A stretch of DNA of 64,000 bases from Planctomycetales bacterium (GTDB lineage Bacteria > 4484-113). The notes beneath the pieces were generated by a model. That model had not been told where the DNA came from. It saw only the letters and a program-made list of their open reading frames with translations, and did not search any database. The translations under genes were made by a program, and so were the position numbers. Location of the stretch: contig JAUWGS010000009.1 of NCBI GenBank assembly GCA_030606285.1, positions 1-64,000 of the forward strand, read 5' to 3'. Positions 6,549-38,979 of this stretch are shown here, piece after piece (position 1 is the stretch's first letter; every line of letters starts with the position of its first letter).

Positions 6549-9500
6549 CTACCTATCGTAGAAATCGATCACCGCGCAGTAGATTCCATCGTCGTGGCTG
6601 TAGGCTATGAAGATGTATCCATCATGGATGTCGAGATCCAGATGAGAGACTTCGCCTTGGTTTAGCTGGTCAACCTCAACAGGATCCTGCCAGCTACCGC
6701 TATAGTATACGAGCAGATAGATAACCTCATCTTCCTCGTACGCAACACAAGGGATTTCGAGAGTCGGTTCATAGTCGAAATCGCACCAATCCCCCACGGT
6801 CGCCTGCAGTTCGGTCGCCGAACTCCAGCTCGTAGCAGTGTACTTCGCCCACTTCAGGTCGCCGTCGTCGTCCACCCAGATGGCGCCAATCTCAGAATCC
6901 CCAAGATAGTCGAGCGCCACATGTCTGCTCGTTCCTGTGTCCACGTTTTCAGTGTTAAGCGCTGGCGAGGAGCCGGTCCACGCTGAGCCTGTCCACACTT
7001 CGTACTGCACATCATCTGCGCTGCTATCAACTGTGTACAGCGAAGCCCGTGTATCTGCATCCCCCGAATAGTCATCTTGATACTGCTTCAGGTCGTGGGA
7101 CATCCCGACGTGGGTCGCGGCGCCTTTGCTCTGAACCTGCACATAGCTGTTTTTCGTGAAGCTCGATTCCCCTTCAAAGGCGATTTCGTTCAGGGCGATA
7201 TCCTCGGAAGCGTCCCGACCTTTGAACTGAACGAAACTGCCCATATTGTTCACAACCAGACGGACTGGGGAGTTGAAGTACACTGTGCCGTCGTCCACCA
7301 GGATGTTGCAGTCCCAGGAGTCATTCATCTTGGCGTACAGCTTGAGTCCGGGTCCTCCTTCAAAGCCGGGGTCCGGACTCAGGTTATAGAAGTACTGGAC
7401 GACATGAGGAACCTGGTCATCGCCGGAATACACCGTTGGATGGTACTCCAGGTCGCACTGGTAACCGAGATGTTCGCCGACTTCACTGCCGGTCCAAACC
7501 ATCTCTGGAGTAGTCCATCCGCCGGACTCTGCGGTCTTCTCCGAGAATTTGGCGACATCCGCCGGCAGACCCGGGTTAATCGTGGGGTTGGCCGAATACA
7601 CAACTCCCGGCCAGCCGGTGTCCGGGTTGACAGCTACTGAGATGCACGGAATGCCCACCCAGTCGCTACCGGTGCCGTCGTCCACCACCTCATTTCGCTC
7701 GACCACCGGGTCCCACCAGATCCTGACCTTACCGTCCTCGTCCTCATCTTCTGACCAATCGTACGTGTGGGTATGGCTTGAAGGCGAGTCGCAGGATCCG
7801 TTCATGACCGTGTGGTCGTTGTCGTAACAGGTTACAGTGATCTGATACACACCGGGATCGTTGTACGGGTGTGTGGTTATGCCGTCGAATCCTTGATCAC
7901 CGTAGGATTCCGTGTGGTTCGCTGAACCGTCACCGAACGAGAAGACAAACCTCGTTGGAAACTGATTCGTTCCGTCCGCATCTGATGAGTCAGAAGCATC
8001 AATAGTCACCGTCACAGGGTCTAATGGGTTGTTCGGCTCTGACCTCCCTACTTCGTTGGTAAGTGAAACACTGTTGATGACGGGACTCGCGTGCGTGAGC
8101 GACAGCGGGGTTATGTTAATGGTGTATTCATCGTTCTCGTCATCATCGGCGACCTTGGTCCTGCACGTGATATCCGTCGTATGGTGATCATCGTCAATGA
8201 ACTCATCCGACCTGTTAAACGTGACATCATACTCCGCCTTATAGACCTTCTCGTAATCGGGTGCACCGGGATTCTCTACAGTGAATTCCTCGTCCTCGTC
8301 ATCGAACGTGTAGTCCCAGTCAGGAGCCTGCGATTCACAGCGGTCAAACGCGATGGTCTCGATGATGTCGCCGTCCCTGTCCTGTGCCCTGGTCATAAAC
8401 TTGATGGTCGCAGGTAGTGTTGCGCTTGTAGGATTCACCGTAAACTCGATGACAGTGGGCGGTTCGGTCGCAGGGACATACTCTACTTCAACTTCCACTG
8501 TATCGGTGCTCCAGTCGCCTACTTGGTCTGTCACCCACACCGTCGCAGTGTAGGTTCGCGGTAAGGAGTAGGCCCAGTCGGTCGTGTCCGTAGTGCCTGT
8601 ATCACGCCATAGCCAGCTGTCCCAATTGTCAAAGTCCCACTCGTAATAGAGCGTGTCGCCTTCGTTCTCGTCGGTGCTCCCGCTTGCGTCGAAGGTCACG
8701 GTCTCGCCGCAGTCGGCCACCGTCGGATCAGCCGTGATGTCAGCCACCGGTGCGGTGTTTGAGCCTGCGTGGTCGAACGTGTCGGTTTCGCTGGGGATGT
8801 CCTGTTCCCCGATACTAAACACCGGCTTCACCCGAATCAGGTCACTGCCGCTTGACGTTTCAATGGTGACCGGGGGTGAAGTATCACGATAGATGCTCTT
8901 TTTGGTGAAAATGAAGGACCAATCGTCCGGTGCGTTCTGACTAGAGTTGTGCACACCGTCAGACCGATCAGCAATGAGCTTCCAGTCACCTCCGGTGCTA
9001 TCCTGCCAGTAAACATTGTATCCGTCAAGGTGACCATCCATACTATATCCAAAGTTGATGGCCAAAGGCGTAATGTCCGCGATGCTGATTTCGCCATCCT
9101 CATTGGCTAGCCGGTCGATGCGAGCATCTAGGTCATACCACTCATCGCCTTTCTTGTGCCCGAAGTTGGCACCAATCGGGTAGATGTCGTCGAGGGTTAC
9201 TACGTTATCGAAATCATAGTCTCCAGAGAGCCTTTGGTAGAACGAAAGCGTCCACTTCCACTTGTTGCTTGGACTGGTAGTCTGCACAAGGTCAAACTCC
9301 TCCTTGTTGTCCACCCCGCTGGTCTTGCACACCTTATGGAATGGGTCAACCAGTGAAGCTCCCTTGAGCGTACTAACGCTCTCGTCAATGACGATTCCGT
9401 ACCGTTCGAGCATCATGTCCTTGAACTTCTGCTCCAGATACTCTATGCGGTCTTCCAAAGACATCGCCATCAGCATGTAATCTTCTTCCGTGAAGACGTC

Positions 9501-9656
9501 TTCCGCGGGCTGCCGGGCGTCGTTTTGCCCCACAGCCACCTCTGGAATGGGTGGCCCGGTCACCGTCCTTGCCGGGCTGCTTCGCTTTCCGCAAGCCCCT
9601 GTAAGCAATAGCAGCGTGAGAATCGCTGCAATCCCAATGTAAATGTAGTTTTTCAC
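6549..9656 (-). CDS. Large lipoprotein: dockerin-like pair, PKD domains and C-terminal propeller-like region
   Basis: The 1035-residue protein starts with a lipoprotein signal (lipobox LTGAC). A coiled segment near 60-85 is followed by two Ca-binding, dockerin/EF-hand-like loops at about 142-210 (GDYDFDNVVTLDDI and ITPLAINFG). PKD-type domains sit at about 300-390 (YYEWDFDNWDS) and about 525-620 (FVFSFGDGSANHT), with a less clear Ig-like block between them. The last 390 residues carry repeated W/Y-rich beta segments with no family I recognise. The start is GTG with GGAGG about 10 nt upstream. It shares the double Ca-loop domain with the lipoproteins at 9911 and 29388. Likely a cell-surface protein; its binding partner is unknown. 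Confidence 0.75.
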   Translation of the reverse strand: MKNYIYIGIAAILTLLLLTGACGKRSSPARTVTGPPIPEVAVGQNDARQPAEDVFTEEDYMLMAMSLEDRIEYLEQKFKDMMLERYGIVIDESVSTLKGASLVDPFHKVCKTSGVDNKEEFDLVQTTSPSNKWKWTLSFYQRLSGDYDFDNVVTLDDIYPIGANFGHKKGDEWYDLDARIDRLANEDGEISIADITPLAINFGYSMDGHLDGYNVYWQDSTGGDWKLIADRSDGVHNSSQNAPDDWSFIFTKKSIYRDTSPPVTIETSSGSDLIRVKPVFSIGEQDIPSETDTFDHAGSNTAPVADITADPTVADCGETVTFDASGSTDENEGDTLYYEWDFDNWDSWLWRDTGTTDTTDWAYSLPRTYTATVWVTDQVGDWSTDTVEVEVEYVPATEPPTVIEFTVNPTSATLPATIKFMTRAQDRDGDIIETIAFDRCESQAPDWDYTFDDEDEEFTVENPGAPDYEKVYKAEYDVTFNRSDEFIDDDHHTTDITCRTKVADDDENDEYTINITPLSLTHASPVINSVSLTNEVGRSEPNNPLDPVTVTIDASDSSDADGTNQFPTRFVFSFGDGSANHTESYGDQGFDGITTHPYNDPGVYQITVTCYDNDHTVMNGSCDSPSSHTHTYDWSEDEDEDGKVRIWWDPVVERNEVVDDGTGSDWVGIPCISVAVNPDTGWPGVVYSANPTINPGLPADVAKFSEKTAESGGWTTPEMVWTGSEVGEHLGYQCDLEYHPTVYSGDDQVPHVVQYFYNLSPDPGFEGGPGLKLYAKMNDSWDCNILVDDGTVYFNSPVRLVVNNMGSFVQFKGRDASEDIALNEIAFEGESSFTKNSYVQVQSKGAATHVGMSHDLKQYQDDYSGDADTRASLYTVDSSADDVQYEVWTGSAWTGSSPALNTENVDTGTSRHVALDYLGDSEIGAIWVDDDGDLKWAKYTATSWSSATELQATVGDWCDFDYEPTLEIPCVAYEEDEVIYLLVYYSGSWQDPVEVDQLNQGEVSHLDLDIHDGYIFIAYSHDDGIYCAVIDFYDR

Positions 9657-9811
9657 TTTCTACACCTCCTCCAAATACTACGAATTGATGCTAGGCAATC
9701 TGATAGCAGCTCCAAATTCCAACAAGTGCGCCTTCGCGAAACGTCAAAAGCCAATGTCTATCTGAGTCGAGATATGAATTTATGTATCCAACGATGCCTT
9801 AGCATGGTATT

Positions 9812-9839
9812 ATTATACAACATCAGCCAGCGATTTCAA
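9812..9839 (-). promoter_or_regulatory. Promoter of the 1035-residue lipoprotein gene
   Basis: On the minus strand, TTGAAA (9834-9839) and TATAAT (9812-9817) are separated by 16 nt. The start codon is at 9656, so the leader would be about 150 nt. This is the main content of the 254-nt gap between the two lipoprotein genes; nothing else was recognised there. Confidence 0.55.
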
Positions 9840-9910
9840 CCCCTGAGCAGCTCCGAATCCGATTTTCTCGGCCTTTCTACGCACAATGGTGCTCAAGGCC
9901 CACTTAACTC

Positions 9911-12226
9911 CTATTTCGGATAGTACTTTATTATTAATAAGTCTTCGCTGCCAGTTGCGGTGTCAAGCAATCCCTCCGGCGCGGTCACAGTGCCCTCCGG
10001 TGTGTGCGCCACTCCTTCGAGATCCCAGACATCTCCTTCCACTGCGGTCTCTACACCTTCAGGAAAGAAGTCGTCAGGAGCTACTTGCGACCAGTTGCCA
10101 ACGGGGTTCCTCGATTCGCCAGCAATGTATAGGTACCCTTCGGCATCAAATCCGCACGAACGTCCCTCGGAACGGATATAGCTTCCACGCCATTCCCTGC
10201 AGATCATAACGTTCAAGTCCGGATTGAATACAATAAGAGCGATGTTTCCTTCGGCTTTGCCAATTACTACTAGATTTCCTTCGGGGTCGAAGCACACGTC
10301 TCTGAAATTGTCCCACGGTGAAACCTCACGGCTTCTTGCAGAAAGGAAATCGCCGTCGGCATCATACTTCAGGATAAAGCCTGCTGATTCCTCCGGATCA
10401 ACGCTCTTTGACCGTCCCACAAGATAGATGCAGCCATCCGGACCGATTGTCATCTCATAGGCGCTGTCCTCTCTTTCCGTACCCCAGGTTCTTGCCCAGA
10501 GAACTTCTCCGTCCTCGCTCATCTTCATAAGGAACGCGTCGCCGTCGTGTGCCTCGAAGCTAGCGGTCCTCCCGCACACATAGACCGCGCCGCCGTAGGC
10601 CAGCACGTCAGACGCTGGGTCTTCCCATGTGCCGCCCCACAGCTTCGCCCAAAGCACATTCCATTCAGGATCCAGCTTCACTATCAATGCCAGTGGGTCC
10701 CCGCCATACACAACCCACTTGCCGCAGATGTAGGCGTTGCCTTCCCCATCAACGGCAATGTCTAGCCCGCTTTCATAATGACTGGTTCCCCAAGTCAGAG
10801 CTCGTATCAGCTCTCCTTGAGGGCTGTATTCCATTAGAAGGATGTCGTCTCTCCCCTCACCGTACCCTTCCGTGTATCCCGAGAGCAACAAGGTTCCTTC
10901 ATTGCTCATCGTTGCCGCGATCGGCGACTCAGCGCCCTCTCCGCCCCAGGTTCTTGCCCAGCTCACATTGCCACCCGCGTCGAACTTGACCAGAAGAACA
11001 TCTGTATGCCCCTGTCCGAAGCTCGATGTAAATCCGAAGACATAGGCATTACCATCCTCGTCCACGACCATGTCCTTAGTCCATTCCGCCTCTTCTCCGC
11101 CCCAGGTATGGGCCCAGATGTCGCGCTCGGAGACGGTGAGGGCGAAGGGGAAGGAGGCTTCGCCGTAGGCGTTGGTGACGGTCAGCGAGGCTTCGTATTC
11201 GCCTGCGTCTGCGAGGGTGACTGTCGGCGAGGGATCGCTGGAAGTGTCAGGCTCCGCGCCGCCGCCAAAGTCCCACGCGTAGGTTAGCGGCTCTACACCT
11301 GAAAATGTGGCGCTAAATGTGTATTCCTCGTGCTGGTAGCCCTCGGTGGGGCTTACCTGGTAGATTATCGGCTCGCGGCTGGGGCGCAGCACGGCATTTG
11401 ACGGCTCGCCCGGTGCGCCTTCACTGTCTACGGGCACAACCCGATGCCACAGCGCCGCAGGCGATTCGATAACAGCGCTGTATTCCAGCCGCCCTTCGCC
11501 GATTCCCGCATCCTGCGCAATTTCGCTGACTAGCTCATACGAGCCTGCTTCGTCAGGCGCACCCTCCACAGCGTAATGATCCACGCTGGCCGCAAAATTC
11601 ATCGCAATCGGCGTGATTTCCTCAATGCCAATGCGCCCGTTGCCGCTGCCGTCAATTACGGCAAGTAAGCAGTTTTCGTCGATAAGTTCGTAGGTTTCGC
11701 TATAGTGCATCGCCAATGGCGTGATATCCTCGATGCCGACCGCGCCGTTCTGGTCGTAATCGCCAAGATTGCGGTAATGCCACGAGAGCGTGTAAGTCCC
11801 GTCGCCGTTGTCGGAAATGGTAAGGTCATTCACCCGGTTGGCTTCACCGGTGGGGGGCGTGCAAACGAAGCGGGTTTCCCCCTGTAGGGCGGGGACCTGT
11901 GCCCCGCCGTCCACCATCTTTGCGTAATCCCCCAGCGGCGCGCCACAGGTGCGCGCCCTACAGAAGAGCGCATCCGCGAGCGCATCCTTCAGCTCCGCCC
12001 ACAACGCCGCGTCCACGCCCTCCGGACATTCCATCCCCTCAAGCTCCACCAGCGCTTCGTCGAGCGTTTGGTGTAGCATTATTGTGGGAGGGGCAGCCTC
12101 CAGGCTGCCCACGCCTTCGGCGGCTTGGAAGCCGCCGCTCCGGATGGATGGGGGATTTGCCGCGTGTTTGTGACCGCCGCAGGTCGTGAGCAGGATGCAG
12201 GCGCAAATGGCACCGCACACCAACAT
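9911..12226 (-). CDS. Lipoprotein: dockerin-like pair, PKD domain and SBBP-type beta-propeller
   Basis: The 771-residue protein has a lipoprotein signal (LLTTC) and then a linker. A helical segment holds ALWAELKDALADALF. Two Ca-binding loops each end in an ITP[LI]AM motif (GDYDQNGAVGIEDITPLAMH and GSGNGRIGIEEITPIAMNF). A PKD domain follows (YAWDFGGG), then about six repeats of roughly 50 residues of the type WARTWGG...D..GN.YV.G, as in SBBP beta-propellers. The last blade carries a low-complexity loop rich in P-E-G. It is a paralogue of the protein at 29388. Two linkers are built from palindromic repeat DNA (11884-11964 and 12091-12136). Likely surface exposed; function unknown. Confidence 0.8.
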   Translation of the reverse strand: MLVCGAICACILLTTCGGHKHAANPPSIRSGGFQAAEGVGSLEAAPPTIMLHQTLDEALVELEGMECPEGVDAALWAELKDALADALFCRARTCGAPLGDYAKMVDGGAQVPALQGETRFVCTPPTGEANRVNDLTISDNGDGTYTLSWHYRNLGDYDQNGAVGIEDITPLAMHYSETYELIDENCLLAVIDGSGNGRIGIEEITPIAMNFAASVDHYAVEGAPDEAGSYELVSEIAQDAGIGEGRLEYSAVIESPAALWHRVVPVDSEGAPGEPSNAVLRPSREPIIYQVSPTEGYQHEEYTFSATFSGVEPLTYAWDFGGGAEPDTSSDPSPTVTLADAGEYEASLTVTNAYGEASFPFALTVSERDIWAHTWGGEEAEWTKDMVVDEDGNAYVFGFTSSFGQGHTDVLLVKFDAGGNVSWARTWGGEGAESPIAATMSNEGTLLLSGYTEGYGEGRDDILLMEYSPQGELIRALTWGTSHYESGLDIAVDGEGNAYICGKWVVYGGDPLALIVKLDPEWNVLWAKLWGGTWEDPASDVLAYGGAVYVCGRTASFEAHDGDAFLMKMSEDGEVLWARTWGTEREDSAYEMTIGPDGCIYLVGRSKSVDPEESAGFILKYDADGDFLSARSREVSPWDNFRDVCFDPEGNLVVIGKAEGNIALIVFNPDLNVMICREWRGSYIRSEGRSCGFDAEGYLYIAGESRNPVGNWSQVAPDDFFPEGVETAVEGDVWDLEGVAHTPEGTVTAPEGLLDTATGSEDLLIIKYYPK
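11884..11964. repeat. Palindromic modules inside a lipoprotein gene
   Basis: Two hairpins lie inside the coding frame of the 771-residue lipoprotein: GGCGGGG/CCCCGCC (11888-11908), headed by GTAGG, and GGCGCGC/GCGCGCC (about 11936-11958), ending in CTACAG. The same CTGTAGGG-headed modules are found in intergenic DNA at 51689, 52575, 52763 and 56699. Here they encode the linker between the helical segment and the conserved TRFVCTPPTGE block. Confidence 0.7.
12091..12136. repeat. Two TCCA-loop palindromes inside a lipoprotein gene
   Basis: GGGCAGCC-TCCA-GGCTGCCC (12091-12110) and GGCGGCT-TGGA-AGCCGCC (12119-12136) are perfect hairpins 8 nt apart. They encode part of the linker just after the lipidated cysteine. 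The loops are TCCA and its complement, as in other members of the family. Confidence 0.7.
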
Positions 12227-12329: not shown

Positions 12330-14144
12330 CTAAATCTCGAATTCGGTCTCGTGGCGCTTGAGGGCTTCGGGGTAGGCGTGCACGATGTCACTTCGCGTCA
12401 CGATGCCAACTATCTCGCGGGGGTTTTCCCGGCTGACCACCGGGAAGCGTCCGAGTTTTAGCGTGTCGAACAGCTTGTGCACTTCCCATACCAGCGTGTC
12501 CGCGTACACGGTCTTTACTTGCGTGCACATAATCTCCTTAAGCCTGACCTCATGGGCGCGCTGCGTGTCGGTGATTATGTGGCGGCCGAAGTCGCCCTCG
12601 GTGATGATGCCGGTAAGAAGCCCTTCGCGGTCCACCACCGGGAAGCCGTTGTGGTGGCTGGTGAAGACGATGCGGTATGCCTCGTCGTACGGCGTATCCT
12701 CGTTGATGCCCTCAACGTCCCGGTGCATTATCTCGCCGACCTTGATCTCCTCCAGCACGTTGACGTGGTGCAGCGTGCGGCGGTGCACGCCCAGCTGGTG
12801 CAGCTTCAGCGTGAATGCGCTGTAACGGAGAAAGTGGTTGTAGACCAGCGTGGCGACGGTGACTGCCAGCATCAGCGGCATGACCAGCGAGTAGTCGTTG
12901 GTCATCTCGACGATCATTATGATCGCGGTGAAAGGAGCCTGGATGGTTGCGCCGAGGACGGCGGCCATGCCAACCAGCGCATAGGCTCCGGGATTCTGAA
13001 AGGGCGTGTCCAATACCCGGTTCGCCAGATTCCCGATGGCTGCGCCAAGCGTCCCCCCGATGAACACCGATGGCGCGAACACACCGCCGGAGCCGCCACT
13101 GCCCACTGTCAGCGAAGTTGCCACAATCTTGAGCACTAACAGGACGGCGAGCGCGGTCACCAGATTGCTCACAAGGAACTCCTGCTTGAGCATCTGGTTC
13201 ATGAACTCGTAGCCGGTATCCATAATCTGGGGTGCCCACAGCGCAATGACGCCGACTCCCAGTCCGCCCATTGCCGGCTTCAACCATGCCGGAAAACGCA
13301 CCCGCGTAAATACCGACTCCGTTGCGTAAAGCAGTTTGACAAACAGCAGGCTGGCGACAGCCGCAAGCAGCCCCAGGGCGAGGAAGAAGCCGTATTCGTG
13401 CCACACGAAGGGTTTGTAGCTGGGAATGAGAAACGATGGGCTTGGCCCTAGCACGTAATAGCCGACTACCGACCCCGCGACCGAGGCGAATATGATTGAG
13501 GCGAAGCTCCGTATGGCGTAATCTCCTACGATAACTTCCATCGCGAAGATAGCTCCCGCTATGGGCGTGTCGAACAGTACCGCAATACCTGCGGCGCATC
13601 CGCTAGCGATGAGCTACCGGGTGCGCCCAGGCGTTATCGCAAAGAGCCTGGCGATAAAAGCCCCGATGCTGCCGCCGATCTGGATGATGGGGCCTTCCCG
13701 GCCGGCGCTGCCACCGGATGAAAGCGTCAGGACGGTGGCTACGATTTTAGAGAAGATGACGCGCGCGCGAACCCTACCCTTGATGCGGTCAATGGCCATC
13801 ATCAGTTGCGGCACCCCGCTGCCGCGCGCTTCCGGGGAGAGGTACGTCACGATGGGGCCCATCAACAGTCCGCCGAGAACGGGGATGAAGATAATAGATG
13901 CGTTCCCCAGGAGCGGTACCAGTTCCGGCTGAACCACGTCAAAGAAGAAGTAGCGGCACCAGCGCATCATCAGGATGAAGAGGGCTGTGCCGAAGGCGGT
14001 GGCAATGCCCACAGTGATTGCCAGCAGGTTTATTGTGAGATTCTGCGGGAACCCGGGGAGTAACCGGCGTCGCGCCGTGCCGCTTGCGACAGGCGAGTCT
14101 TCTCCCACTGGTGCAGTCTCATCGTCCACGGTCGATCGCGGCAC
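12330..14144 (-). pseudogene. CLC-type chloride channel with CBS pair, interrupted by an in-frame amber codon
   Basis: Reading from 14144 to 12330 gives one CLC channel/antiporter with a C-terminal pair of CBS domains, in one frame except for a TAG at 13614-13616. The family motifs GSGGSAGREGP-like (SGGSAGREGPIIQIGG), GAAAGIA-like (SGCAAGIAVLFDTPIAG) and GSGGSGGVFAPS are all there. The TAG falls between TPGRTR and LIASGCAAG, a normal helix position. No frameshift is seen. It could be a recent nonsense mutation, a base error or, less likely, amber readthrough. A TATAAT at 14147-14152 suggests the true start is the GTG at 14129. Without readthrough only 176 residues are made from the natural start. 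Confidence 0.8.
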
Positions 14145-15620: not shown

Positions 15621-16661
15621 TCAAACGATGGTTACGAGATGCTCACCGCGTTCGGTGATGTGGCCGATTACGGTAGGCTGCTCGCCCTTCTCGCTCATGG
15701 TGGTCAACAGTTCATCAAGCTCATCTTTCGGACATGTAATCAGGAGTCCGCCTGAAGTCTGGGCATCGCAGAGGAGCATCTTCTGGGCGAAATCCGCGGG
15801 TCCGAAATCAGTAAACCGGCTGGCGAACTCATAGTTCATTGCAGTTCCGCCGGGCACAAAGTCCACAGCCAGCTCTTTTGCCCCCTTCATCAGCGGCACC
15901 GAGGCCAGTTCGATGCGAGCGCCGACCTGCGAGGCTTCGAGAATGTGCAGCAGGTGCCCGAGCATACCGAAGCCCGTCACGTCCGTTGCTGAAGTGCGCG
16001 AGAGCGTCAGCATTGCCTCGCAGGCGGAACGGTTGAGGTGTGACATGATTGCGATCGCGGCGTCGAGTACGTCTGCCGGTGCTTTTTCGTTCATCCCGGC
16101 TGTCGTGATGATGCCGCTCCCCAGTGGTTTAGTGAGCAGGATGGCGTCGCCGGGCTGCGCAGCATCGGCCCCGATTATCTTATCCGGGTGTGCGATTCCA
16201 GTGACCGCTAAGCCGAAAGCCGGTTCAGGCAGCTTAAGTGAGTGCCCGCCGATGATTGGTGCGTCTGCAATCGCGGCAACTTCGTTTGCGCCGATAAGCA
16301 TCTCGCTGGCTACCCATTGCGGGAAGTCCTTGGCTGGAATCGCCATGATGGCCAAGCATGTCACCGGACGCCCGCCCATAGCGTAAACGTCCGAGAGGGA
16401 GTTCGCAGCAGCAATGCGCCCATACTGGCGCGGATCGTCCACGACCGCTGTGAAGATATCCACCGTCTGGATGAGCGCCAGATCGTCGCTTATTCGGATG
16501 ACGCCCGCGTCATCGCCGTTAGCGATGCTCGTGACGATTTCCGGCTTCGTGAAGAAGTTGACTTCCTTCAGGATGGCCTGCAGGTCTGCCTGACCCACCT
16601 TGGAGGCTCATCCGGCGCAGGACGCGTAGGAGGTCAACCGGATTTTGCGTGATTCATTCAC
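15621..16661 (-). CDS. selD: Selenophosphate synthetase with selenocysteine at the active site (TGA readthrough)
   Basis: SelD makes selenophosphate from selenide and ATP, the selenium donor for tRNA-Sec and selenouridine. A frame opening at GTG 16661 reads VNESRKIRLTSYASCAG, then TGA (16608-16610), then ASKVGQADL. This is the expected SelD N-terminus, with the catalytic Cys/Sec at residue 18. Downstream, NGDDAGVI, TVDIFTAVVDD, ATDVTGFG and CDAQTSGGLL are all intact, giving 346 residues in all. Starting after the TGA (GTG 16598) would delete the catalytic residue. A short hairpin follows the TGA. A TATGAT box lies 8 nt before the GTG. Sec insertion is inferred from sequence, and is common in SelD proteins. 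Confidence 0.9.
16582..16596 (-). promoter_or_regulatory. Candidate SECIS hairpin in selD
   Basis: On the minus strand, GGGTC-AGGCA-GACCT forms a 5-bp stem (one G-T pair). Its loop begins 17 nt after the TGA and has G as second base. This fits the known geometry of bacterial SECIS elements. The stem is short, so confidence is limited; folding of the whole 45 nt after the TGA would settle it. Confidence 0.45.
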
Positions 16662-31366: not shown

Positions 31367-32473
31367 ATGAACTTCGCAGGAAGAATCCAGCGCATAAGAG
31401 ACTGCCTGGCCGGGCATCAGATTGACGCCATGCTCGTCAGCTATCTCAAGAACATCTTTTACCTCTCCGGCTTCAGCGGATCAACCGCAGAAGTCCTTAT
31501 TACGGGAGAGGATGCGCTGTTCCTGACCGATTCCCGCTATTACGAGCGCTTCAAAGAGGAGGTTTACCAGGACTACCAGCTTGTCCCGTTTTACCAGGAG
31601 AGCCTGGGGCGGAAGCTCAAGGAGCTGGCGGCAAAGCACGGATTCGCCCGCCTGGGGATTGAGGCGGAGCACCTGTCGCTTACCCAGGTCGAGGAGCTGA
31701 AGGAAAACTCCGGCGTGGACATCGTGCCGCTCAGCGGCGTCGTTGAAAAACTGCGCATCGTCAAGGATGACGAGGAGATAGCCGCTCTGGAACGCGCCAT
31801 CCGGTTGAAGGAAGAAGTGTTCACCGAGCTGGTCGGGCTCATACGGGGCGATGTCACTGAAGCCGATCTTGCCGCCGAGTTCGAATACCGCCTGCGCAAG
31901 AAGGGCGCGCAGATGGCGAGTTTCCCTTCCATTGTGGCCTTCGGCAAGAACTCGTCAAAACCACACGCAACGTTCACCGATCAGACCCTCGTGCCCACAA
32001 TGCCGCTGACCTTTGACTTAGGAGTGGAACTCGATGGGTATTGCAGCGATATGACCCGCACCGTATTCTTCGGCGGTGTGGCGCAAGGCTGGCGGGAAAT
32101 TTACTCCATCGTGCGCAAAGCTAAGGATGCGGCGGCTGACGGAGCGCGCGCCGGAATGCGTTGCGCAGACGTTGATCGCATCGCCCGGGATATCATCTGC
32201 CAGGGTGGATACGACTCCTACAAAGTTGACGGCGACGAGCGCAAATACTTCGGGCACGGCCTCGGGCACGGCGTGGGCGTGGAGGTCCACGAAGCGCCCC
32301 GTTTGAACAACCGAAGCGAGGAGACCCTCGAAGCCGGCACTGTCGTGACAATCGAGCCCGGCATCTATCTGCCGGATCAGGGCGGCATACGGATTGAGGA
32401 CATGTATGTGGTCAGAGAGGATCGCCTGGTAAACCTGAACGCTCTGCCAACGGACATTCTGGTCGTGGAGTAG
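31367..32473 (+). CDS. pepP: Xaa-Pro aminopeptidase, M24 family
   Basis: This cytoplasmic metallopeptidase removes N-terminal residues ahead of proline. The creatinase-like N-terminal half (residues 1-125) and the pita-bread M24 half are both present. Metal ligands are in FDLGVELDGYCSDMTRT, GHGLGHGVGVEVHE, TVVTIEPGIY and GGIRIEDM. The length of 368 residues fits the short YqhT/PepQ type. The start has TAGGAGAT 6 nt upstream. It is followed after 8 nt by efp, a pairing common in Firmicutes and some other phyla. Confidence 0.92.
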   Translation: MNFAGRIQRIRDCLAGHQIDAMLVSYLKNIFYLSGFSGSTAEVLITGEDALFLTDSRYYERFKEEVYQDYQLVPFYQESLGRKLKELAAKHGFARLGIEAEHLSLTQVEELKENSGVDIVPLSGVVEKLRIVKDDEEIAALERAIRLKEEVFTELVGLIRGDVTEADLAAEFEYRLRKKGAQMASFPSIVAFGKNSSKPHATFTDQTLVPTMPLTFDLGVELDGYCSDMTRTVFFGGVAQGWREIYSIVRKAKDAAADGARAGMRCADVDRIARDIICQGGYDSYKVDGDERKYFGHGLGHGVGVEVHEAPRLNNRSEETLEAGTVVTIEPGIYLPDQGGIRIEDMYVVREDRLVNLNALPTDILVVE

Positions 32474-32481
32474 GTTTCGAT

Positions 32482-33045
32482 ATGATAACGCCAAACGATT
32501 TTCGCACGGGGACTACCTTCAAGAGGGGCGCTAATCTAATGCGGGTCCTCGAATTCCAGCACGTCAAGCCCGGCAAAGGCCCGGCATTCGTGCGCGTCAA
32601 GCTGCTCAATGTACGCTCCGGCTCTATCAACGAAGTCACAATGCGCACTGAGGAGAAGCTGGAGGACGTGCGCATAGAAAAGCGGGAGATGGCGTTCCTC
32701 TACCGTGACGGCGAGAGCTATATCTTTATGGACAGCCAGGACTACGACCAGGTCCCGGTGCAGGCCGACATGCTCGGCGACAAGTTGCAGCTAATCAGGG
32801 AAAACGATGTTGTATTCATGGATCTGTACGGGGAGGAGATCCTGGGCGTAGATCTTCCCGCATCTGTCGTTTTGAAGGTTGTTCAGACCGAGCCTGGGGT
32901 GAAGGGCGATACTGCAACTGCAGCGACCAAGGCCGCCACTCTGGAAACAGGCGCAGTCATCCAGGTGCCGCTATTCGTAGAGGAAGGCGATCTGGTGAAA
33001 GTGGATACGCGCGCGATCAAGTACCTGGAGCGCGTCAAAGGGTAG
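32482..33045 (+). CDS. efp: Translation elongation factor P
   Basis: EF-P rescues ribosomes stalled at polyproline. The 187-residue protein has the three beta-barrel architecture. The tip loop KPGKGPAF places Lys32 where post-translational modification occurs in many bacteria. The C-terminal GDLVKVDTRAIKYLERVKG is typical, with a shorter variant of the usual signature. It is co-transcribed with pepP. Several polyproline stretches in this window, such as AEPPPEADKPEEPPEKP in the DUF1844 protein, would be natural clients. Confidence 0.95.
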   Translation: MITPNDFRTGTTFKRGANLMRVLEFQHVKPGKGPAFVRVKLLNVRSGSINEVTMRTEEKLEDVRIEKREMAFLYRDGESYIFMDSQDYDQVPVQADMLGDKLQLIRENDVVFMDLYGEEILGVDLPASVVLKVVQTEPGVKGDTATAATKAATLETGAVIQVPLFVEEGDLVKVDTRAIKYLERVKG

Positions 33046-33147: not shown

Positions 33148-36144
33148 ATGATGAGAAACACGATTTGGCTCTGGGTGGTCATCCTGATCGCCGCGTTCGC
33201 CGTTGCCTGCGGCGGCGGCAGTGGCGGTCCCACTCCGATCACGCCGTCTCAGGAGACCGGCGGAGGAGAACCACCCGCTGACGAGAGCCAACCGTTTTCG
33301 GTGGTGCTAACGGCGACCCCGGACCAGGGGCCGACCCCGTTGACGGTTAGCTTCTCGGCGTATGCGTTTGGGGGTTATCCTTCGTACTCGTACGAATGGG
33401 ACTTCGACGGAGACGGAGTAGCCGACTCGAACGCTGTCGACCCGTACTGGACATTCAATAACAGTGCGATTGTCGCTGTCAAGATAACCGACTCGCGTCA
33501 CCAGACGGTTACAGTTAGTAAATCAATTACGGTAACCGCTCCAACAGGTGAAACCGGTGGGACTGGAACCCAGCCGCTGGTGGTGCGATTCCAACCTTCA
33601 GTCAATTCCGGCCCCGCGCCCTTACGGGTGCAGTTCACGGCGCTGGTGACTGGTGGAAGCTCGCCATATGGATTCATCTGGGATTTCGAGGGCGACGGCG
33701 TCCCCGACAGCAACAGTGAGAATCCCGTGTTTGTCTACGAGCAGCCCGGTCCACGGATTGGCGATGCCTCCTATTTCTACTATCCGGTGCTGACTGTAGT
33801 GGACAACCGTGGCATTGAGGTTTCCACGGTGGATGACCTGGATGGCGATGGCGAGCCCGATTGGCCTGTCGCGATCAACGTGGTGCCGCCATCGGCTCTG
33901 TTGGCCTACGCCGCGGCGAATCCCGGCTCCGGTCAGGCTCCGCTGCCGGTGGTCTTCAGCGGTGGTGCTTCGGGCGGTGAGCCGCCCTATGAGTTCTACT
34001 GGGACTTTGGAGACGGCACTTCCCGTGAGTTCGACGCCTCGGTGGTGGCCCCGCACATCTACGTGGCTCGGGGCAACTACAATGCCCTGCTAACCGTCAA
34101 GGATAATCAGGGCGTGACGGGGACGAGTGGCATTGTCCCGGTCCGCGTAAGCCAGGAAGTCACCTTCAATGTTCGCATCGAGGCTGACGCAACAGAGGGT
34201 CCAGTGCCCTTCAACGTGCAGCTCACGAGCTACACCGAGGGTGGCAAGGAGCCGATTCACTACAACTGGGAGGTCTTTACTGACCTTGTTCCGACCGGAG
34301 AGGAGCCCATCATTGTGCTCCCGCCCGCGTACCCGATGCCGGTGAAAGACCCTCAGGCGATTGTGGTGCCGGATAAGACATCTGAGCCCAACCCGGTGAT
34401 AACGTTCGCGACTTTCGTTGGCCAGTACGTCGACATGAATGCCAACGAGGCTTACGATGCCGGTGAGGGAGCGGGCGCTCCTTACGTCGTCCGCCTTGTG
34501 GCGAAGGACGACAACGGTGTGGAATCGGTCAGTAATCTGATCCGCATCGAGCCGCGTCAGTCGGAGCCCGCCTCGCTTTACCGCGCTGAGCGTACGCCGA
34601 CAATCGGCTGGTCCATCTATGGCGGCAACACGGTTGGCGGCGCTCTGCCAGCATTCGGTGCGCGCGCTAATCCTGCAACGGCTTCTCACGCGTCCGGCTT
34701 AGTGTACCTGTTCGGTGGCGACATCTACAATGACTCCGGCGAGTTCACGGGAGTCGTGGACCTTATCAGGTCGTCGTACGTTCTGAACCTAACCGGCAAT
34801 GACCGTGCGCCTTCCGGCATGTTCGGTTCGGTATCGGGTGCTGGCGCAGCGGCGGGAGCCTACGAGGATGGCGGATTCACGATGCTTAACTCGCTGCAGG
34901 GCCTCCCGTACGCGTACATTGGTTTGATGCCTACGGTGAAACGCCCGCCTACTCAAGGCAACGGCGGTCCGCCGGACTGTGGCGGGGCATACATGAATCG
35001 TACACTTCAGAAGAGCGTGGCTTTTGAGCCGCGTGGTTCGGCAGCCGCAACAATGGTGCACGAGGACTGGGATGTCAACCCGGGCGGCTTCGGCGGATGC
35101 CCCGGATGACAGCCGCGTCCAGACTTAGGCCCAGGTTGGGCCTTGGGTATGGGAGGATTCGGCGTTCCAGTGTTCTACGTGTTCGGTGGCCGTGACGAGA
35201 ATGGGAATCCGCTGGACGTAGTCCAGAAGTACTTCCCGGAGACCTATGGTGTCGAGGATATGTTCCCGATTCTGTTCAATCCTGGCCCGGTAGCCCAGTT
35301 CGTCAATGCGCAGACCGACATCTGGTCGGATAGTTATATGTTCCACGACTTTGATTGGCTGCCGCAGATCGGTGAGTGCATCAACCTGCCTGTTGTGCCA
35401 GAACGTACACCGGGGAGCGAGACACTCTTGAATCCGCTTCCCGAGCCGCTTTACGGGCACGCTGCGGTGACTCTCGAGTCTACGGGTAACCTCTTCCCGC
35501 CGCCGGTATGGCCGGAAGGGCCGTACTGCTACGTGTTTATCCTCGGCGGTATCAACGACGGGGGCGTGCCGGTCAGCACGATGCGCTGGTTCAACGTTTG
35601 GGCAGCTCCGACCGAGCGCCAAGAGGACGAAGATCCTTCTGCGGGAGATTACTCCGTCGTTTCGCAGATGCCGATTGAGCGCGCCTATCACAGTGCGTTT
35701 GTAACACTGCCTGAAAAGCTCACTGACAAGCCTTGGCGGATCATTGTCGTTGGCGGTTTTGACCGGAACGGCAACTACATCTCGCAGGTGGACGAGTACA
35801 CCTTCACCAGCATCACAAACCCGGTAGCGGGTACGTGGAGAACAGTAGCCAACACTTCGGAGGCTGCTGCTGGTGTCGGAGCAGGCTGGCTGGAAGATGA
35901 TCGCGGTATGGTGTACACGCAGTTGGGCGGTCGCACGGTTGACGGCTACACCGGCTCGGTGTACAACGTGCTGTCGAACGGGTCGATGTCTCTGGCTCCC
36001 ACGGGACTGGTTCCGCGTGGATGGGCCGGAGCGACTGGTGTCACAGCGTACAACGACTTCTACGCACCTGGTGGAGATTTCTATATTGTTGGTGGCCTGA
36101 CCCAGATGGGTATGGACACTATTGTTGAGCATTACCGGCCGTAG
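33148..36144 (+). CDS. PKD/kelch lipoprotein with an in-frame TGA (candidate selenoprotein)
   Basis: One frame runs from 33148 to 36144 (998 residues), broken only by TGA at 35107-35109. The product has a lipobox (AFAVAC). PKD domains lie at about 50-130 (YEWDFDGDGV), 143-245 (FIWDFEGDGV) and 253-338 (FYWDFGDGT), with a fourth, weaker one after them. From about 485 come kelch-type blades (VYLFGG, VFYVFGGRDENG, YVFILGG, IIVVGG, YTQLGG, FYIVGG). The TGA is codon 654 and sits in the loop between the first two blades, making C-P-G-U. A SECIS-like hairpin follows. The downstream part has no ribosome binding site or signal peptide of its own. Alternatives are a nonsense mutation (for example from TGG) or a base error. 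The next gene is an uninterrupted paralogue. Confidence 0.75.
35124..35146 (+). promoter_or_regulatory. SECIS-like hairpin after the in-frame TGA
   Basis: AGGCCC (35127-35132), loop AGGTT (35133-35137) and GGGCCT (35138-35143) form a perfect 6-bp stem. It extends outward past a T-T mismatch by two more pairs. The loop begins 24 nt after the TGA and has G as second base followed by GT, as in bacterial SECIS apical loops such as that of E. coli fdhF. Confidence 0.55.
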
Positions 36145-36189
36145 AAAGCCGGACGTTCGTGATCCCGATGGTTGGGAGGACGTAACCTG

Positions 36190-38979
36190 ATGAAAGTGTT
36201 GAGAGCAATCGGTACTATGCTGATACTTCTCGCTGCCGTCGCCGCTTGCGGCGGCGGCGGCAGCAAGGGGAGCATTTCCCTGCCAAGCCAAACGGATGGC
36301 AACGGTGACGAGAGCGATCTACAGATCGTCACGTACACCGCGTCTCCCACCACCGGTGGGTCGCCTCTGGGTGTCAACTTCATTGTCACCATAACCGGCG
36401 GGGAACTCCCATTCACCTACATGTGGGACTTCGACAATGACGGGGCGTTCGACTTCTACGTCAACGAGGTCGCAAGACGCACTGAACAGTCGTACCACCT
36501 TTACTACTTGCGGAACGCTGACGTTCTTCAGGGGTCGTCCCTTTACCAAGCAGTGGTTAGGGTGAGGGATGACGCCGGTGTGGTTCGTACCAGTGAGCCG
36601 GTGTCAATCCTGATTACGGACGTGCCGCAGTTCGCGCTCGACTCTACACTGACGCGCATTATCAGTGACACTGTAGTCGGGTACGACCAGGAAGGGCAGC
36701 CGATCTACGCCTACCTTTCCGGTGAGCCGGTTTATTGCCGTGTGTTCCCTGATCCTTCGAACCCCGGGGCTCCCCCCTACCGTTTCCAGTGGGACTTCGA
36801 TGGTGACGGGCGGATCGACTCGACCCTGCAGAATCCTCAATACACCTTTACTGTGTTCGAGGGCGATTCTGAATCCTTCATCGTCAATCTGACCGTGACC
36901 GACTCCAACGACTACTCGATTACCCGCCAGTTCCCTCTGACGGTGATCAGGCAGTTGCCGGATGAACCCACAGGAGCTCCGGAGCTTATCGTGAATACCG
37001 CCCCGCCGATTCGGTCTGATGGAACGATCCTGATAGAGCTCGATTCCAGCAGCGACTTTCCTGCCGACCGGGAGCCCCAGATGAACGCCAGCGTTACGGT
37101 GTCCCCGGACCATCCGGGCGTGCTTCCGTACGCGTATTTCTGGGATTTCACCAACGACGGCATCTACGACGCGAACACCACCTCAGTGTCGGTGCCTTAT
37201 TATGATGCAGACCTGAATATCTCTATTAACCCGTACAAGACGTTTGGCCAGGCGACGCGGAACTTTACTCTGGCGCTGCATTTCGTCGATGGGATCGGTC
37301 AGATAGTGCATCTTGAGTGGCCAGTGCGCGTGGTGGATCGCGCCTATGAACCGGTGGTGGATCCTCTGCTCGCTGAGGCCACGGTTGACATCAACAATGA
37401 CGGCTCCTATGAAGTCCTTGATGACGGCACCTACGCCGAGCAGGCCAGCACTGTCGCGCTGGCCAGCAACTTGCTTGTACACTTCCGAGTTGCTGCGAGC
37501 GGCGTGACGGAGGAGTCAGGATTGTATCGCTTCCAGATTGACATCCTGGGCGACGGCGTGTACGCGGAGGATATCAACGAGGGCGATTCAGAAAACCCAA
37601 TTTATGACAATGTTCTGGAATGGGATCCAGACTATGACGGGATCTACGAAGACGTTGACCTAGATGGCGACTCGGAAACGCTCAACGAGGCTACGGTGAA
37701 CATCACCCCCCCGCAGCCCGGCGGCAAGGAGACTGCAATATTTGAGATCAACTACCCGTCTAATCTCCTTCCAGGATACAAGGCAGTCCGCACCAAGGTG
37801 ATAGCAACATCCAAGAGCGGGCTTGAGTTGGCGAGTCGCGTTAGCCACGTGCCTCTGTCGTTCGTAGTGTCGTCCGACAGTATCGAGTTCTCTGCCACCG
37901 GTGATGCGTTCAAGATGCGTCGCGACTTCGGGATGGCGGCGGTCACAGCCATTGATGACAATGATACCCCAGCAGACCAGACCGACGACCACCTGTCGCA
38001 GCGGCGCGTGTTCCTCATTGGCGGCCTGGACGGCAACGTTGCGCTGCGCAGCGTTCAGCTCCTGACCCAGGATTATCTCATGGCTAACGAGCAGTGGGTG
38101 GATCAGGTCAGCGTCAGTGACCGTCTGCCCTTGTCCACGCCACGAGGACAGATGGCTGCGGAGCCGCTTGGCGGCTTCACGAGAGGCGCGAACTCGGTCG
38201 GTATCTACGCGCTTGGCGGCATCAACAACGTCGACCAGACGCTTTCGGTGGTCGAGATGCTCCCAAGCTTCGACGGCGACAGCACCGACTATCCAACGGT
38301 GCCGTGGACGACAGTTGGCTCTATCGGTAACAGCAACACGCAGCTTAGGCTTATGTCCTCCGCCTACGGCGTGTCCTATGGTGGTGGGGCATCACTCATC
38401 CTGATGGGCGGACTGCAAGGCAATCCTCCGAGCGAACACGTGAGTGGTACCGGTTGGATATTCAGGCCCGTGGACAATGCTTGGTTTAGCTCGGCCATCA
38501 GTCCGATGCCGACACCCCGGTATGACTTCGCCATGGTGCTTGACTTCCCGTACCTGTATGCGATTGGCGGACGAAACAACGCCGGTGTGAGCACACGAGC
38601 TGTTGAGAGGGTCCGCCTCGATACCGGGGGCTGGGAGATCATGCCGGATATGAAGTTCGCGCGCGCCGGAGCTGCCGCAGAGATAATCAACGGTAAAATC
38701 TACGTCTACGGTGGCATCGACTATCCTCAGGACCAGAGCGCGCCAGAGTACATCGACACTTCAGAAGTATTCAATCCCGACACTTACGTTTGGTCTCGGA
38801 CGATCGGGTCGGCCCCGGGACGCGCAGGCGCCGGTTCCGTAGCGCTGTTCACGTACCTGAACGCGGACAGCGACCCGCTGCCCAACGACACGGTGTGGAT
38901 TGTGGGTGGCGAGACTGCCAACGGTCCCATAGGCACGCTGGTCCAGCTCTATGTTGAGGGTGTGGAAAACATAGACTAG
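36190..38979 (+). CDS. PKD/kelch lipoprotein, uninterrupted paralogue
   Basis: ATG 36190 (GGGAGG 10 nt upstream) gives a 929-residue lipoprotein with lipobox VAAC followed by a glycine run. Three PKD-type domains follow (YMWDFDNDGAFD, FQWDFDGDGRID, YFWDFTNDGIYD). After a spacer with acidic, Ca-loop-like DPDYDGIYEDVDLDGD come kelch blades from about residue 570 (VFLIGGLDGN, IYALGGINN, LILMGGLQGN, LYAIGGRNN, IYVYGGID, VWIVGGE). It lies 45 nt behind the preceding paralogue and probably shares its transcript. It lacks the cysteine and TGA motif. Likely surface exposed; ligand unknown. Confidence 0.8.
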   Translation: MKVLRAIGTMLILLAAVAACGGGGSKGSISLPSQTDGNGDESDLQIVTYTASPTTGGSPLGVNFIVTITGGELPFTYMWDFDNDGAFDFYVNEVARRTEQSYHLYYLRNADVLQGSSLYQAVVRVRDDAGVVRTSEPVSILITDVPQFALDSTLTRIISDTVVGYDQEGQPIYAYLSGEPVYCRVFPDPSNPGAPPYRFQWDFDGDGRIDSTLQNPQYTFTVFEGDSESFIVNLTVTDSNDYSITRQFPLTVIRQLPDEPTGAPELIVNTAPPIRSDGTILIELDSSSDFPADREPQMNASVTVSPDHPGVLPYAYFWDFTNDGIYDANTTSVSVPYYDADLNISINPYKTFGQATRNFTLALHFVDGIGQIVHLEWPVRVVDRAYEPVVDPLLAEATVDINNDGSYEVLDDGTYAEQASTVALASNLLVHFRVAASGVTEESGLYRFQIDILGDGVYAEDINEGDSENPIYDNVLEWDPDYDGIYEDVDLDGDSETLNEATVNITPPQPGGKETAIFEINYPSNLLPGYKAVRTKVIATSKSGLELASRVSHVPLSFVVSSDSIEFSATGDAFKMRRDFGMAAVTAIDDNDTPADQTDDHLSQRRVFLIGGLDGNVALRSVQLLTQDYLMANEQWVDQVSVSDRLPLSTPRGQMAAEPLGGFTRGANSVGIYALGGINNVDQTLSVVEMLPSFDGDSTDYPTVPWTTVGSIGNSNTQLRLMSSAYGVSYGGGASLILMGGLQGNPPSEHVSGTGWIFRPVDNAWFSSAISPMPTPRYDFAMVLDFPYLYAIGGRNNAGVSTRAVERVRLDTGGWEIMPDMKFARAGAAAEIINGKIYVYGGIDYPQDQSAPEYIDTSEVFNPDTYVWSRTIGSAPGRAGAGSVALFTYLNADSDPLPNDTVWIVGGETANGPIGTLVQLYVEGVENID

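Follow-up and report, generated by a model that had tools for sequence, protein, structure and literature searches.

The K1 gene of a Planctomycetales bacterium encodes an exported PKD-domain lipoprotein with a predicted kelch propeller, and very probably represents a genuine selenoprotein family in which an in-frame UGA is decoded as selenocysteine (Sec). The gene lies in a 64,000-nt stretch of contig JAUWGS010000009.1, referred to below as the window. Translation past the UGA, conservation of the hairpin that follows it, the presence of the Sec machinery and the shifting of UGA sites between orthologues are all evident from genome comparison.

The K1 frame and translation past its UGA

33148..36144, forward strand: K1, exported PKD/kelch lipoprotein; UGA readthrough would give 998 aa with Sec654
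35107..35109, forward strand: in-frame UGA, proposed Sec codon (Sec654), after Cys651-Pro-Gly; conserved in genomes G002 and G001
35127..35143, forward strand: bacterial SECIS-type hairpin AGGCCC-AGGTT-GGGCCT (loop 35133-35137), loop 23 nt past the UGA

The source genome (G000) comprises 2.30 Mb in 36 contigs and is 91% complete. The original prediction described K1 as a single frame broken only once, and the frame 33148-36144 indeed contains exactly one stop, the TGA at 35107-35109. The codons directly before it are TGC CCC GGA (Cys-Pro-Gly), as had also been claimed. The product begins with a lipobox (AVAC-GGG), followed by PKD-type domains and then by the kelch β-propeller. TGA ends 6 of the 28 genes in the window and is otherwise an ordinary stop.

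The TGA site is common to G000, G002 and G001, the latter two being relatives at 82% and 54% protein identity, respectively, and its retention at such distances indicates more than chance. In the comparison of G000 with G002, dN and dS were 0.089 and 0.96 before the TGA, and 0.137 and 1.29 after it, dS values near or above 1 being rough estimates. The values after the TGA are thus much like those before it, the changes fall mostly at third positions, and the dN/dS ratio of ~0.1 past the TGA is that of purifying selection. The longest run of identical codons in K1 between these two genomes covers 16 codons, from Cys651 (codon -3) through the hairpin. Within this run, none of the 14 conserved residues with synonymous alternatives had changed codon, as compared with 44% elsewhere (P = 3e-4). 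Such freezing of synonymous codons around the TGA and hairpin should be expected of an RNA element inside a coding sequence.

It is extremely improbable that the TGA reflects a nonsense mutation, a sequencing error or a split gene, with a second piece that is functionless or separately started. TTG and ATG codons occur near the start of the downstream open frame and might serve a split gene, but the early ATG (35149) is not conserved in G002 and has no clear ribosome binding site near it, consistent with the earlier statement that the downstream part lacks one. A mutation or error would have to account for the same TGA in three assemblies from different species and genera, and a nonsense mutation also for the purifying selection past the TGA. 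Sequencing error and pseudogene formation were rejected because of this conservation.

Candidate SECIS hairpins and the Sec machinery

The bacterial SECIS model, as given in a 2026 review (PMC13188914), includes a loop of 3-9 nt, a G within the first two loop positions, a spacing of 16-37 nt and an MFE <= -7.5. The bacterial-type SECIS proposed for the window, AGGCCC-AGGTT-GGGCCT, was confirmed at 35127-35143 and fits these limits. G002 has the same hairpin with the same spacing of 23. The hairpin of G001 is CCCC-GGGTT-GGGG (spacing 26), for which RNAfold prefers a 6-nt loop one base earlier, and those of G008 (locus L032) and G004 are TGTGC-AGGTT-GCACA (spacing 16, MFE at the limit, -7.5) and GGCGC-AGGT-GCGCC (spacing 17), respectively. 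All five K1 hairpins are within the loop, stem, spacing and MFE limits set out in that review.

An equally good hairpin of the G000 type follows 0.1% of 14,003 TGAs in 464 kb of G000, and the background for all hairpin types is 0.1% to 0.5% of TGAs (rates of 0.001 to 0.005 each). The product of the rates over the three sites at distinct positions (G000, G008 and G004) is near 6e-9, a figure that overstates the case because the loop pattern was fixed after the hairpins had been viewed. Taken by themselves, the folding energies (z from -2.1 to +0.4) are unremarkable and do not discriminate. In the register that the stems of G000 and G001 share, a G-C pair has become C-G and the two outermost pairs are lost; the covariation is one compensatory change, no more. 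An Rfam scan of the window gave no match, and the spacers were too variable for the hairpin regions to be aligned by MAFFT. Other candidates with an in-frame TGA and a hairpin in 400 kb sampled from G000 were rejected as non-coding-looking or as ordinary gene ends.

15621..16640, reverse strand: selD (selenide, water dikinase); its in-frame UGA, 16610-16608, has a GGTC-AGGCA-GACC hairpin after it

This gene bears out the claim that selD lies in the window and itself contains a TGA. In the genomes that carry a UGA in K1, the selD hairpin has the form GGTC-(5-nt loop)-GACC with a spacing of ~16 and loops AGGCN, CGTGN or CGGGT. An AIR-synthase-type open reading frame at 400-1455 is a gene distinct from selD and is probably purM.

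The check for selA, selB and selC in the rest of the genome, advised with the prediction, found all three in addition to selD. In G000, selA is over the cut-off, SelB (679 aa) passes the NCBIfam selB cut-off and there is one tRNA-Sec, with anticodon TCA. Among 10 genomes of the phylum, 9 have selA, 8 have a TGA-containing selD and 7 have a tRNA-Sec over the cut-off. No tRNA-Sec was found in G001 or G002, both of which have the K1 TGA and selA, and both of which are incomplete drafts. Formate dehydrogenase is the commonest selenoprotein; no such gene with a TGA was found in G000. A formate dehydrogenase-like match with one in-frame TGA lies in a sister genome (G007:C1:41057-41800).

Given these components, SelB and Sec-tRNA(UCA) would recognise the hairpin just past the UGA, and insertion of Sec would yield one full-length exported lipoprotein comprising the PKD domains and the kelch propeller. 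Sec is thus the residue predicted at codon 654 in the living cell. It is very unlikely that a suppressor or near-cognate tRNA reads the UGA as Trp or Arg, independently of SelB. UGA followed by C is a leaky stop context, and the UGA in the window precedes C, but in other orthologues it is followed by A or G. Moreover, a SECIS-type hairpin is found after every UGA, the Sec machinery is present and TGA is an ordinary stop elsewhere. Points against Sec are the lack of an aligned Cys, the usual supporting sign, in any orthologue, the ordinary folding energies, and the failure to find a tRNA-Sec in G001 and G002.

Orthologues and shifting UGA sites

31367..32473, forward strand: M24 metallopeptidase, conserved syntenic neighbour
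32482..33045, forward strand: elongation factor P (EF-P), conserved syntenic neighbour
36172..38979, forward strand: K2, tandem paralogue of K1, PKD/kelch lipoprotein without UGA, conserved neighbour

The gene order M24 peptidase, EF-P, K1, K2 is kept as a block across the orthologous loci, and a small gene and DnaK follow the block in 4 of the 7 other genomes examined, as in the window. The conserved M24 metallopeptidase neighbour identifies the K1 genes as orthologues. K2 adjoins K1 in all 8 genomes with a full-length K1, a set outside which stands G009, where K1 is interrupted by contig ends around the Sec loop. Exactly one in-frame TGA is present in 5 of these 8 genes and none in the other 3. 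Since the syntenic orthologue has one in-frame TGA in 5/8, K1 is not a decayed gene.

The shared site reads CPGU in G000 and G002, which belong to one genus, and PPGU in G001, from the nearest other genus. In G004 the UGA lies further on within the same blade-to-blade region (GCDAGGU), and in G008 it is in a later propeller loop (PDCGGU). G007, a family relative of G008, has neither Cys nor TGA at the G008 site. The proposal that CPGU is a conserved redox motif was therefore not upheld, as the motif is confined to one genus, is replaced by PPGU in the next, and the UGA of distant orthologues is elsewhere or absent. Nor was a conserved CxxU or UxxC found in the five K1 sequences (CPGU, CPGU, PPGU, CDAGGU and CGGU).

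In the three TGA-less orthologues (L033, L034 and L035), no Cys aligns with Sec, the loops being hypervariable and exact column matching uncertain, and no orthologue has a Cys aligned with codon 654. The homologue search envisaged for that codon thus gave U in G002 and G001 and an aligned Cys nowhere. Homologues with other residues at this position, which had been named as evidence against Sec, do exist in part, and are outweighed by the conservation of the TGA and hairpin. TGA is absent from the K2 paralogues and from the matched parts of the other PKD matches of the phylum, two of which have TAG. Among 279 genomes from outside the phylum, none gave a K1 propeller at E <= 1e-25. In a scan of public genome contigs the matches fell on PKD repeats, with no orthologue outside the phylum, and a scan of viral sequences gave PKD matches only.

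The TGA-hairpin unit probably arose more than once, by independent gains at different positions in the loops of the same orthologous gene. Several gains are probable because the TGAs located elsewhere have AGGT-loop hairpins of their own and the TGA-less relatives lack an aligned Cys; we infer gain here, as opposed to repeated loss. Likewise, the UGA sites probably did not arise by change of a Cys codon to UGA. The K1 protein exists without Sec in sister lineages, hence the K1 fold does not need Sec. On balance, this pattern favours repeated de novo origin of Sec and SECIS in one surface propeller, selected for Sec as such (in a Sec-Cys bridge or a redox/metal site) and without exchange of a catalytic Cys.

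If Sec decoding is accepted, Sec could instead be a near-neutral passenger fixed by chance in permissive loops and having no role, which we regard as unlikely. The sister orthologues without Sec and the hypervariable loops agree with such an origin, and retention of the UGA alone could reflect dependence on readthrough. Against it, the UGA and hairpin have been kept in both G000 and G001, whose proteins are 54% identical, and the codons around them show no synonymous change between G000 and G002. Three places in one gene, with the phylum's other PKD matches free of TGA, are also hard to explain as chance.

According to a 2006 survey, most rare selenoproteins come from Cys ancestors and new Sec sites arise mostly from redox-active cysteines (PMC1794560). 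Such homologues are usual, not absolute, as no Cys homologue of glycine reductase selenoprotein A was known in that survey (PMC1794560). K1 differs from the usual view of selenoprotein origin in that Sec is never where a relative has Cys, and no Cys ancestor is seen in the available genomes, in which complete orthologues number only eight. The homology step of deep-Sep needs Sec or Cys homologues (PMC12013277). In K1, Sec has no Cys counterpart in homologues and changes place between lineages, so searches of this kind would probably miss K1. The shifting hairpins make the birth of SECIS elements in coding sequence directly testable.

Predicted propeller and possible role of Sec

Pfam identified PKD domains in K1, and the PKD domains of collagenases were remote matches in the PDB. 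The Pfam kelch models gave no match to K1 itself; K2 matches them. AlphaFold2 predicted a kelch propeller for the C-terminal 536 residues of K1 (pTM 0.66, mean pLDDT 56), and a Foldseek search with this model gave E ~5e-10. VIA-align matched it to plant epithiospecifier protein (Z 27.5; 293 residues, 3.0 A). The C-terminal part of K1 is thus predicted to have a kelch propeller fold. The full-length model was poor, and the Sec loop has pLDDT <50 in both AlphaFold models. The VIA-align match spans the Sec site, so that a product stopping at the UGA would be left with the first part of the propeller alone. The earlier view that the propeller continues across the UGA is in accordance with this model, which needs sequence from both sides.

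The nearest Cys is 3, 3, 7, 3 and 5 residues from Sec in the five UGA orthologues. The chance of a Cys that close is 0.03 to 0.10 per protein and the feature was picked after looking; the proximity is only suggestive. Shortly before the Sec loop, residues 599-611 of the G001 protein (L031) form a CxxC...CxxC insertion (SCMSCPSEQPCPRC), and a CxxxCxC group occurs in G007 and G008. These groups suggest metal or disulfide sites in neighbouring loops.

Sec would lie in a long variable surface loop from one propeller blade to the next, with at least one cysteine close by. There, at the cell surface, it may pair with Cys as a selenenylsulfide or share a metal site with Cys, an arrangement that would be useful and dispensable for the fold. 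Such a redox or metal site is the role that we prefer, tentatively; a structural bridge is a further candidate. A decidedly unlikely alternative, again with Sec decoding accepted, is a selenium-dependent switch, in which a truncated PKD lipoprotein is released without selenium and the Sec side chain is minor. In favour of a switch, the place of Sec is not conserved, the models show little order in the loop that holds it, and the UGA is always inside the propeller, which stopping there would abolish. However, the UGA is found in only 5 of the 8 orthologues, and no nearby Cys would be needed for a switch, yet every site has one <=7 residues away. A switch and a role of the Sec side chain could occur together.

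K1 resembles the CxxU/UxxC selenoproteins (SelD, SelW-like, AhpD-like) in its in-frame UGA, its hairpin of the bacterial SECIS model, the presence of SelA, SelB, SelD and tRNA-Sec, and a Cys near Sec. Most known families, however, have a fixed Sec site at which homologues carry Cys, whereas in K1 the site differs between lineages and a Cys form was not found. In predicted fold K1 is similar to kelch propellers such as YjhT/NanM mutarotase, Keap1 and plant specifier proteins (VIA-align Z 25-27 over ~255-300 residues), but identity is only 13-23% and function is not transferable. To our knowledge, none of these matches contains selenocysteine, and Selenium-binding protein 1 / methanethiol oxidase (SELENBP1) is not a UGA-encoded selenoprotein. 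SELENBP1 is like K1 by description, being a β-propeller tied to selenium and thiol chemistry (PMC10362175).

The 2026 review lists 119 families and subfamilies of prokaryotic selenoproteins, and none of kelch, PKD or propeller type was found in its text (PMC13188914). No selenocysteine paper that also concerns a PKD domain and a lipoprotein was found in the open-access literature. The family is undescribed within the open-access literature searched. Thus, of the new surface selenoprotein family originally proposed, the exported lipoprotein and its absence from the catalogue searched stand, and the conserved CPGU motif does not. With K1, the range of Sec would come to include an exported kelch propeller from an uncultured phylum.

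12330-14144, reverse strand: CLC channel gene with CBS domains; a single in-frame TAG at 13616, frame otherwise continuous

The lone stop in this gene, earlier raised as a caution, is real, but being a TAG it has no Sec explanation and offers no parallel for the TGA of K1. G000 holds many PKD proteins, and two further large ones lie side by side in the window (6549-12226, reverse strand), one of them with SBBP propeller repeats.
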